A stretch of 42,249 bases of DNA from Candidatus Omnitrophota bacterium (GTDB taxonomy: Bacteria; Omnitrophota; Gorgyraeia; Gygaellales; Profunditerraquicolaceae): contig JAQUMX010000011.1 in the NCBI GenBank assembly GCA_028717885.1, positions 1-42,249 of the forward strand. The letters are read 5' to 3'. The notes beneath the pieces are model-generated. The model had not been told where the DNA came from, did no database searches, and saw only the letters and a list, made by a program, of their open reading frames with translations. Of the stretch, positions 13,835-42,249 are shown in pieces. Positions within the stretch are counted from its first letter, which is position 1; each line of letters opens with the position of its first letter. A program made the translations under genes and the position numbers.

Positions 13835-13872
13835 GTTAGTGCCTACAAGGATGCTTGTAGGCACTAACCATT
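13835..13872 (+). terminator. Perfect 15-bp hairpin, probable terminator
   Basis: GTTAGTGCCTACAAG (13835-13849) and CTTGTAGGCACTAAC (13854-13868) pair perfectly around a four-base loop. A short CATTTT follows, weak for a T tract, but the position between a gene end and a new promoter fits a terminator. Confidence 0.7.
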
Positions 13873-38854: not shown

Positions 38855-41029
38855 ATGGAAAAAATAATTCTGCAGGTGTCCGGCATGCATTGTGCCTCTT
38901 GTGCGGCAAATATCGAAAGGGCCTTAGGCAGGCTCGATGGGGTTTTACAGGCAAATGTTAATTTTGCCTCTGAAGAAGCCTATATCGAATATGACCCGCA
39001 AAAGATTTCTCTTGGCAGCCTTGAAGCGGCAATTGATAATAGCGGATATAAGGTAATCAAGCAGGGGCAGCCGCAAGTAAATGAAACCCTTAGTATCAGT
39101 GTCAGGTTTTTAATCTCGCTTCTTTTTTCCCTTCCTTTAATGTACTTGGCAATGAGCGTGCACTTTAAATTCCCGCTTTCCGCTCATATTACGGATAATA
39201 TGGCTTTAATCCAATTCCTGCTTGCTACACCGGTAGTCGTTGCCGGCTACCCTTTTTTTAAGCGGGGGATATTAACGCTTTTTAAAACCCGCAATGCCAA
39301 CATGGATACCCTGATTACTCTGGGTGTAGGCAGCGCCTATCTTTATAGCCTGATCGGGCAGGCGAACCTTTATTATGAAGTCGCCGCATTTTTACTTACC
39401 TTTATTATGCTTGGCAGGCTGTTGGAATCCAGGGCCAAAGCAAAAACTTCCCAGGCAGTCAATAAACTTTTGAAATTGCAAGCTAAGACCGCAATCGTGA
39501 TCAGAGGAAATTCCGAAATCGAAGTCCCTATTGAAGAGCTCGTGCTTGATGATATCGTAATCGTGCGGCCGGGAGAAAGGATACCCGCTGACGGCGTAGT
39601 GGTAGAGGGGCACTCCGGAGTTGACGAGTCCATGATTACCGGAGAAAGTATCCCGGTAGAAAAATCAACCGGTAGCCTCGTAATCGGCGCTACGATAAAT
39701 AAGAACGGGACCTTTAAATTCCGCGCAACGCGTATCGGTAAGGAAACGGTTTTGGCGCAGATCATCAGGTTAGTCCGCCAGGCGCAGGCATCTAAAGCGC
39801 CGATCCAGGCTTTGGCAGATAAAATTTCCGCTTATTTCGTACCGACAGTATTGATTATCGCAATAACTGCTTTGATTGTTTGGCTTTTCTTTGGGGCGGG
39901 TTTTGCTTTTGCGCTTTCGATATTTATTTCCGTGCTGATTATCGCCTGCCCCTGTGCTTTGGGATTGGCTACGCCAACTGCAGTAATGGTAGCAACCGGG
40001 GTTGCGGCAAATCAAGGGATCCTGATTAAAACCGCCCAGAGCCTGGAATTTTTTCATCAGGTGAAAGCTGTTATTTTCGATAAAACAGGCACACTTACTC
40101 AGGGAGTGCCTTCGATTACGGATATAGTTAGCATAAAAGAAATAAGCCAGAATGATATTTTAAGGTACGCAGTGATTGCGGAAAAGCGTTCGGAACACCC
40201 GCTGGCAGAAGCAGTGGTAAATTTCGCCAAAAAAAATAATCTGGAAATTCCCGATCCGGATGTTTTTAATTCTCTTACCGGTAAGGGGGTAATTGCACGT
40301 TTCGAAGGACAAGTGGTCCTCTTGGGGAACCGCAAACTGTTTTTAGACCGTCAAATCGATATTTCACCGGTAGAAAAACAAATGGATATTTTTGAGCGGC
40401 AGGGCAAGACGGTGATGATCGTAGGCCTGCAGAGTGAGGCAATCGGGTTGATTGCTTTGGCAGATACGCTGAAGGAGTTCTCTCAATCCGTGATTAGTGA
40501 GTTAAAAAGGATGGGTAAGTGGGTGATGATGATTTCCGGGGATAATCGCACTACTGCGCAGGCAATCGGTGCAGAGCTGGGGATCCACAAAATCCTGGCA
40601 GAAGTTTTACCGGCAGATAAAGTGCATGAAATCCAGCGTCTGCAATCAGAAGGGATTAAGGTTGCGATGGTAGGCGACGGCATTAATGACGCCCCGGCTT
40701 TGGCTCAGGCAGATATTGGGGTGGCTATCGGCGCAGGCACAGATATTGCGATTGAATCCGGGGATATAGTGCTGATTAAAGATGACTTAAGGGATGTGGT
40801 TACGGCAATGGACCTGTCCCGTTATGCAATGAAAAAAGTGAAGCAGAATTTTTTCTGGGCATTTGTCTATAATATCATCGGCATTCCTTTAGCTGTGGGC
40901 ATGCTTTATCCGGTTACCGGCTTTCTTTTAAGCCCGGTAATTGCCGGTATTGCCATGGCCTGCAGTTCTTTAAGCGTAGTCAGTAATTCTTTGTCGATGC
41001 GCAGGTATAAGCGGCCGGTATTTTCTTAA
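38855..41029 (+). CDS. copA: Copper-transporting P1B-type ATPase (CopA-like)
   Basis: P1B-ATPases export Cu(I) or other soft metals from the cytosol. The 724 residues have one N-terminal heavy-metal-binding domain (SGMHCASC, Cys13 and Cys16), membrane helices, the A-domain TGES, the intramembrane metal motif [13 protein letters not shown], the phosphorylation site DKTGTLT, the SEHPLAEAV motif and the hinge [16 protein letters not shown]. The CPC motif with one HMA domain fits CopA, and the closing helices ([29 protein letters not shown]) have the copper-specific YN and MxxSS residues. It follows thiE by three bases, so it is co-transcribed with thiamine salvage genes. Confidence 0.95.
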
Positions 41030-41103: not shown

Positions 41104-41139
41104 TTGACTAAATGATACTAATATAGTATCATTTAGTCA
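41104..41139 (+). promoter_or_regulatory. rrf2 promoter covered by a perfect palindromic operator
   Basis: TGACTAAATGATACT (41105-41119) and AGTATCATTTAGTCA (41125-41139) are perfect reverse complements around AATAT. The same DNA contains TTGACT (41104-41109), a 17-base spacer and TATCAT (41127-41132). Six bases beyond the -10 is the ATG at 41139, whose A is the last base of the palindrome. Binding would occlude the whole promoter. The mRNA is predicted leaderless. Confidence 0.85.
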
Positions 41140-41540
41140 TGAAGCTAATTACCAGGGATACTGATTATGCAATGCGCGCGCTTATTTTTCTGGCGCAACA
41201 GAAAAACAGGGTTATTTCTGTTTCGGAACTGGTGCGGGAATTGAAAACGCCCCGCCCTTTTTCAAGAAAGATTCTCCAGCAATTAAATAAGGCAAAAATC
41301 CTGCGGTCTTTTAAAGGAAATCATGGGGGGTTTATTTTGGCAAAAAAGCCGAAAGAGATTTTTTTAGTTGACCTGATCCGGGTATTCCAGGGGCCGCTTG
41401 AGCTTAATGAATGTATTTTTAAAAAGAAAATTTGCCCTAACCGTAATTGTTGCGTGTTAAGAAACAGGATTAGCAGGATCGAGAATAAAGTATTGGCTGA
41501 GTTGGGGGCAATCACAGTAGGTTCCTTGTTAAAGGAGTAA
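41139..41540 (+). CDS. Rrf2-family transcriptional regulator
   Basis: Rrf2 proteins are winged-helix dimers, many sensing through a [2Fe-2S] cluster (IscR, NsrR, RsrR). The 133-residue protein starts with the family sequence MKLITRDTDYAMRALIFLAQQ, then the recognition-helix region ISVSELVRELKTPRPFSRKILQQLNKAKILRSFKGNHGGFILAKKP. Four cysteines occur in CIFKKKICPNRNCC, the spot of the Fe-S ligands, so an Fe-S or redox sensor is likely. The palindrome spanning its promoter predicts autorepression. The next gene, a 4Fe-4S protein, begins six bases downstream. Confidence 0.93.
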   Translation: MKLITRDTDYAMRALIFLAQQKNRVISVSELVRELKTPRPFSRKILQQLNKAKILRSFKGNHGGFILAKKPKEIFLVDLIRVFQGPLELNECIFKKKICPNRNCCVLRNRISRIENKVLAELGAITVGSLLKE

Positions 41541-41546
41541 AAACTT

Positions 41547-42236
41547 ATGTCAAAAAGGAAAATTATCAGGATTGATGAAGATAAATGTAACGGCTGCGGC
41601 GCTTGTATCCCGAATTGCCGGGAAGGGGCAATTAAAATTATTGACCATAAAGCACGTTTAGTAAGCGAAGTCTTGTGCGATGGCTTGGGAGCTTGTTTGG
41701 GAACCTGCCCCCAGGGAGCTATTACTATCGAAGAGAGAGAGGCGCAGGCTTTCGATGAAAAAAAAGTAGAAGCACACCATGCTCACCATGTAGGTTGCCC
41801 CGGGTCAAAGATTATGGATTTTAGAAAAAAGCAGGCAGGGCCAAATAGCAAGGCTTCTATCGCGGTAAATTCCGAGTTGCAGCAGTGGCCGGTACAGATT
41901 ATGCTGATACCGCCCCATGCTCCATATTTAAATAATGCGGATTTGCTGGTTGCCGCGGATTGCGTGCCTTTTGCCTATGCCAATTTTCATCAGGATTTAT
42001 TAAAAGGAAAAATAGTCTTAGTCGGCTGCCCAAAACTGGATGACCCGGATGCTTATCGGGAAAAATTCGCGAGAATATTGGGCCTCAACCAGATCAAATC
42101 CATTACCTATGCGCATATGGAAGTGCCTTGTTGCTCCGGATTGATCGGAATTATAAAAGAAGCTATCAGTGGATCAGGCAAAGATGTTGAATTTAAAGAA
42201 GCGGTGATCAGTATTCAGGGAGAACGCTTGAAATGA
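41547..42236 (+). CDS. 4Fe-4S ferredoxin-type protein with His/Cys-rich linker
   Basis: A 229-residue protein with two ferredoxin motifs. The first is complete (CNGCGACIPNC). The second is CDGLGACLGTCP, where the second cysteine of CxxCxxC is Leu, a change I recall as common in this group. Then follow HHAHHVGCPG and a second domain (QIMLIPPHAPYLNNADLLVAADCVPFAYANF, IVLVGCPKLDDP) with a final VPCCSGL. It may carry electrons to a partner enzyme. It is probably in the rrf2 operon, under the palindrome, and its stop overlaps the start of the next gene. Confidence 0.85.
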   Translation: MSKRKIIRIDEDKCNGCGACIPNCREGAIKIIDHKARLVSEVLCDGLGACLGTCPQGAITIEEREAQAFDEKKVEAHHAHHVGCPGSKIMDFRKKQAGPNSKASIAVNSELQQWPVQIMLIPPHAPYLNNADLLVAADCVPFAYANFHQDLLKGKIVLVGCPKLDDPDAYREKFARILGLNQIKSITYAHMEVPCCSGLIGIIKEAISGSGKDVEFKEAVISIQGERLK

Positions 42237-42249
42237 AACTTAAATGCCC
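42233..42249 (+). CDS. Start of a further gene, cut by the window end
   Basis: An ATG at 42233 overlaps the stop of the 4Fe-4S gene (ATGA) and opens a frame that begins MKLKCP before the window ends. Only six codons are visible, so the product cannot be named. The overlap and the strand suggest it is in the rrf2 operon, and an early cysteine hints at a metal- or Fe-S-binding protein. Confidence 0.4.

Follow-up and report, generated by a model that had tools for sequence, protein, structure and literature searches.

NsrR is autoregulated, its own promoter carrying a 23-bp inverted repeat of 11-1-11 geometry, and Glu-85 of the Streptomyces coelicolor protein has been proposed as the fourth ligand (PMC4432287). 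The proteobacterial NsrR regulon comprises NO-defence genes, including hcp and dnrN, and HcpR recognizes motifs of the TTGAC-N4-GTCAA or TGTGA-N6-TCACA type (PMC1274295). RsrR sites, which are 11-3-11 repeats, overlie the promoter region of the regulator's own gene and have been proposed to block RNA polymerase (PMC5015018). Here, a 42,249-nucleotide stretch of DNA from a Candidatus Omnitrophota bacterium (the window) was analysed, in which a long palindrome precedes an rrf2 gene. Judged by sequence comparison, this palindrome is very probably both promoter and operator of a self-repressed rrf2–ferredoxin(–hcp) nitrosative-stress operon.

The rrf2 locus and its palindrome

The predicted regulator gene rrf2 (41139–41540, forward strand) encodes 133 amino acids and is separated by 6 nt from a gene for a ferredoxin-type protein (41547–42236, forward strand), a predicted co-transcribed target with two 4Fe-4S motifs and a C-terminal domain for which no Pfam match was found. 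A further forward-strand gene start (42233–42249, MKLKCP...) overlaps the ferredoxin-type gene by ATGA and is cut by the contig end. Directly upstream of rrf2 on the same strand lies a gene for a copper-type P-type ATPase (copA, 38855–41029); at L032, L058 and L094, too, the gene immediately before rrf2 is of this type and reads in the same direction. The sigma-70-like promoter of rrf2 consists of TTGACT (−35, 41104–41109) and TATCAT (−10, 41127–41132) on the forward strand, with a 17-nt spacer and 10/12 matches. An in-frame TAG at 41124–41126 rules out an rrf2 start further upstream.

Pfam and NCBIfam matches fix the fold family of the protein as Rrf2, with 108.6 bits for PF02082 over residues 4–132 and a score of 100.4 for TIGR00738 (cut-off 73.3). 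Scores fell below cut-off for the equivalog models of NsrR (NF008240, 62.2 vs 182), IscR (TIGR02010, 43 vs 207.55) and RirA (NF008886, 66.3 vs 193), as well as for the SUF regulator of the Xanthomonas type (TIGR02944, 81.8 vs 110.65). The protein has matches in 91/108 genomes of the family, paralogues included. Cys92, Cys99 and Cys105 form a C-x6-C-x5-C motif, and three cysteines are present in 87/88 homologues. Eight residues before the first of these stands Gln84, which is Gln in 86/87 homologues and aligns with Glu-85 of S. coelicolor NsrR; because it replaces the proposed fourth-ligand Glu, the cluster type may differ from that of the S. coelicolor protein.

The palindrome spans 41105–41139 as a perfect inverted repeat, TGACTAAATGATACTA-ATA-TAGTATCATTTAGTCA, with 16-bp arms and the 3-nt centre ATA. 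The first-pass annotation had reported a perfect palindrome with 15-bp arms over the rrf2 promoter, ending on the start codon. Its perfection stands, but the arms are 16 bp long; the 15+5+15 division describes the identical repeat and assigns one A-T pair to the loop. Both promoter hexamers are overlaid as described, except that the first T of the −35 hexamer (41104) lies just outside, and the last palindrome base, 41139, is indeed the A of the rrf2 ATG. Among the short-loop inverted repeats of the window this is the longest, and in 20 dinucleotide shuffles the longest arm reached 8–12 bp, compared with 16 bp here. The second longest inverted repeat of the window, at 13835–13868, has 15-bp arms and a 4-nt loop (GTTAGTGCCTACAAG/CTTGTAGGCACTAAC). 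Around the operator of a homologous locus, L096 (reverse strand), the palindrome exceeds that of the window in length (CTTGATTAAATGATACTAATATAGTATCATTTAATCAAG). Neither the window nor ten loci gave an Rfam match at gathering thresholds.

Conservation and genomic distribution of the probable operator

Upstream regions were compared at 95 rrf2 homologue loci in Candidatus Omnitrophota, after removal of three near-duplicates; besides the window itself, these homologues are 39–64% identical to the window's Rrf2 protein. The core ATGATAC-N7-GTATCAT, allowing up to 2 mismatches within 500 nt of rrf2, was found in 89/95 homologues, a count that does not represent independent trials, as the homologues are related and the genomes mostly metagenome-assembled. 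In two of the six homologues without the core, the contig reaches only 243 and 308 nt upstream, and a matching site is present on another contig of these genomes; the other four have sufficient upstream sequence and no core site. The core was also absent from the less similar paralogues L128–L130, L132 and L133 (37–41% identity). In the window, the core (AATGATAC-N7-GTATCATT) occupies 23 bp at 41111–41133 with 11-1-11 geometry, 10/11 positions being complementary and the mismatched pair lying beside the centre. As in the window, the right arm in the homologues coincides with the −10 hexamer and TTGAC adjoins the left arm.

Column statistics over the 89 sites showed that both inner arms are nearly invariant and that TTGAC is conserved on the left side only, while the outer right flank carries 0.1–0.25 bits/column over the first five columns past the arm, which is near random. 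Since ATGATAC, the left arm, plays no part in the promoter on the forward strand and is conserved like the right arm, it is probably recognized by a protein. The conserved operator by this comparison is the inner ~23 bp, and the left outer arm in the window is the −35 hexamer. The proposal of an operator of full length is thus to be narrowed to the inner ~23 bp; the whole 35 bp is not a conserved operator, as the outer right part is not conserved. Nor can the length of the palindrome be taken as a sign of tight repression: only the inner ~23 bp are both symmetric and conserved in the homologues, so length alone is no evidence for tightness.

A search of the organism's own genome with the half-site, suggested in the first-pass annotation as a way to define the regulon, gave 15/16 matches against 17/18 for a reversed-pattern control and so stayed at control level. 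The full dyad occurred once with up to 1 mismatch, and allowing up to 3 mismatches raised this to 14 sites per strand, compared with 2 for the control, the next best site having 2 mismatches. From these searches, the regulon is defined by the full dyad and not by the half-site, with a strong site in the own genome at this promoter only. Across the phylum, the core with TTGAC was found in 141/384 genomes (the reversed control gave two matches among the genomes listed), and the core with up to 1 mismatch in 80/105 genomes of the family, mostly once per genome. When hcp or the associated ferredoxin gene lies apart from rrf2, it often has this site in front of it. The site thus precedes hcp without an adjacent rrf2 (L188, L232 and L236), the ferredoxin gene (L184, L185, L200, L226, L232 and L237) and, named by reading of the sequence, membrane proteins resembling CcdA/DsbD (L235 and L240).

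The gene order rrf2–ferredoxin–hcp is found in many relatives, and neighbours there include ferredoxin, hcp, RIC-like DUF542, DUF2249 and hemerythrin-like genes, labels that were partly assigned by reading the sequence. Known NO regulons contain genes of these kinds (PMC1274295). No hcp was found in the own genome, which is 88% complete, and the contig breaks off shortly past the ferredoxin gene; the link to NO is therefore borrowed from relatives.

Start codon spacing and a short frame in relatives

Between the −10 hexamer TATCAT and the start codon lie 6, 6, 6, 6, 6, 7, 7, 7, 9 and 10 nt in the homologues with the shortest gaps, and at least 16 nt in the remainder. A gap of 6–7 nt thus recurs in eight homologues including the window, where it is 6 nt, and transcription that starts seven bases past the −10 hexamer would begin exactly at the first base of the rrf2 start codon. 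Shine-Dalgarno sequences were present at none of the 10 loci with a gap of up to 10 nt, compared with 58/78 of the others. On the protein tree, which was built by a quick method from 135 columns and is weakly resolved, the short-gap state requires 8 changes, at least 3 of them forced by well supported branches, so that it recurs in scattered parts of the tree. Gaps of 6 and 7 nt also precede a different gene at L235 and L240, respectively. The spacing fits a leaderless rrf2 mRNA, and the earlier prediction of such an mRNA gains support from the recurrence of the short gap. Searches of the literature on leaderless Rrf2 operators returned nothing or unrelated work.

Relatives L033–L127 (L033, L053 and L100, for example) have a short frame between the operator and rrf2, which is absent from the window and was not found in the own genome. 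Where the gap between operator and rrf2 exceeds 90 nt, the frame was present in 55/56 loci, mostly with a length of 19–31 amino acids (~26), the form MDITVKYMLRPVAHCKEGCSxLSWARR with an invariant C-x3-C, and often a strong Shine-Dalgarno sequence. Over 18 aligned codons, single-base differences were mostly synonymous (9773 vs 1626 in pairwise comparison), and for this reason the frame looks like a real microprotein. It was found in 101/246 genomes of the class and had no Pfam or NCBIfam match. At its downstream end, overlapping the stop codon, lies a conserved DNA element, GGGYA-NGACGTTAAAC-TRCCC, which is kept where the frame stops earlier and whose stem bases vary; formation of a hairpin by this element is possible. 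The element also stands before other genes (L262, L264 and L267), and it is interrupted by a GC-rich inverted-repeat insert at L044, L048, L055 and L056 (GGCGGGATCCCGCC type in L055).

Alternative readings, proposed mechanism and described regulators

A long perfect stem between copA and rrf2 could act as an intrinsic terminator or RNA hairpin, with the minus-strand stem followed by AAGGTTTTTTTT, and so stop antisense transcription or mark the copA–rrf2 boundary; a minus-strand terminator-like site was indeed listed by the promoter/terminator scan. The stem, however, has only 4 G-C pairs, no T-run follows it on the forward strand, which is the direction of copA and rrf2, and with the predicted start the arms would be untranscribed. 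The homologues, moreover, mostly have T upstream of the −35 hexamer on the forward strand (73–74/89 in the three outermost columns), that is A on the minus strand, the opposite of what a minus-strand terminator needs. On this base composition in relatives the terminator reading was rejected, and we consider it very unlikely. The outer arms might instead have been selected as a −35 hexamer on each strand of a symmetric bidirectional promoter, and ATGACT-17-TATCAT is present on the minus strand. Perfect symmetry of at least 7 bp beyond the core was seen in the window (7 bp) and L096 (10 bp), with L220 and L089 nearly reaching it. When right flanks were shuffled, at least one such extended site arose in 2.4% of trials and two in 0.005% (5e-5), which makes pure chance an unlikely source of the long outer arms. 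Against this stand the extension in just 2/89 homologues, window minus-strand frames that are short and overlap copA, and no divergent open reading frame found at L096 (= L193) or L220. A bidirectional promoter was set aside for want of a divergent frame and appears very unlikely.

The site could also be the operator of some other regulator that controls rrf2, either Fur-like or the CRP/FNR-type HcpR. TGATA...TATCA in the operator bears a likeness to part of the Fur box. Furthermore, HcpR controls hcp and its ferredoxin in other anaerobes, although the quoted HcpR motifs differ from the sequence of the site (PMC1274295). The site nevertheless accompanies rrf2 in 89/95 homologues, and genomes mostly contain a single copy, a pattern that a local autoregulator would produce; the less similar paralogues lack it. 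Control by another regulator is accordingly judged improbable.

Autorepression by an Rrf2 protein of the Fe-S type, as the first-pass annotation predicted, is supported by the comparison across homologues, including the three-Cys cluster motif. In the proposed mechanism, an Rrf2 dimer, probably with an iron-sulfur cluster on Cys92, Cys99 and Cys105, would bind the inner 23-bp dyad. The bound dimer would cover the spacer and the −10 hexamer and abut the −35 hexamer, shutting out RNA polymerase and thereby repressing rrf2 together with the ferredoxin gene behind it, as well as hcp in relatives. If the cluster were damaged or lost, with nitric oxide as the most likely signal, the DNA would be released and the operon expressed. 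Transcription from the active promoter would then begin no more than one base away from the A of the rrf2 start codon, and the mRNA would be leaderless.

More broadly, we think it reasonably likely that an undescribed Rrf2 subfamily, marked by three Cys and an invariant Gln at the position of the proposed Glu ligand of S. coelicolor NsrR, controls hcp and its ferredoxin across Omnitrophota through one fixed promoter-operator, TTGACA-A-ATGATAC-N7-GTATCAT, and that in certain lineages, this one among them, operator, promoter and start codon have been condensed into a single ~36-bp element with a leaderless, self-repressed regulator mRNA. In the open-access literature searched, no description of the ATGATAC-N7-GTATCAT motif was found, and Omnitrophota and Rrf2 were mentioned together only in one paper, on another organism. 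The mechanism appears ordinary, but neither the regulator nor its DNA code seems to have been described. The analysis yields a DNA code that lends itself to experiment, predicts the signal of a regulator that is widespread in an uncultured phylum, assigns candidate nitrosative-stress operons in Omnitrophota and supplies a well-delimited example of a start codon that would coincide with operator and promoter.

Among described systems, NsrR of S. coelicolor and E. coli shares with the window protein the Rrf2 family, three Cys in the same region and a 23-bp 11-1-11 repeat. It looks as if the regulator works like NsrR, given its operator geometry and target genes, although membership of NsrR is not claimed. 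The window protein differs in having Gln at the Glu-85 position and C-x6-C-x5-C spacing, and its operator departs from the proteobacterial/Bacillus motif gATGyAT-N5-ATrCATc (PMC1274295), as does the S. coelicolor NsrR site (PMC4432287). HcpR has the same kind of targets, hcp and the associated ferredoxin frdX (PMC1274295), but belongs to an unrelated protein family (CRP/FNR) and uses another DNA motif. RsrR and IscR are likewise Fe-S regulators of the Rrf2 family, and RsrR differs from the regulator described here in its target genes and its 11-3-11 repeat geometry.
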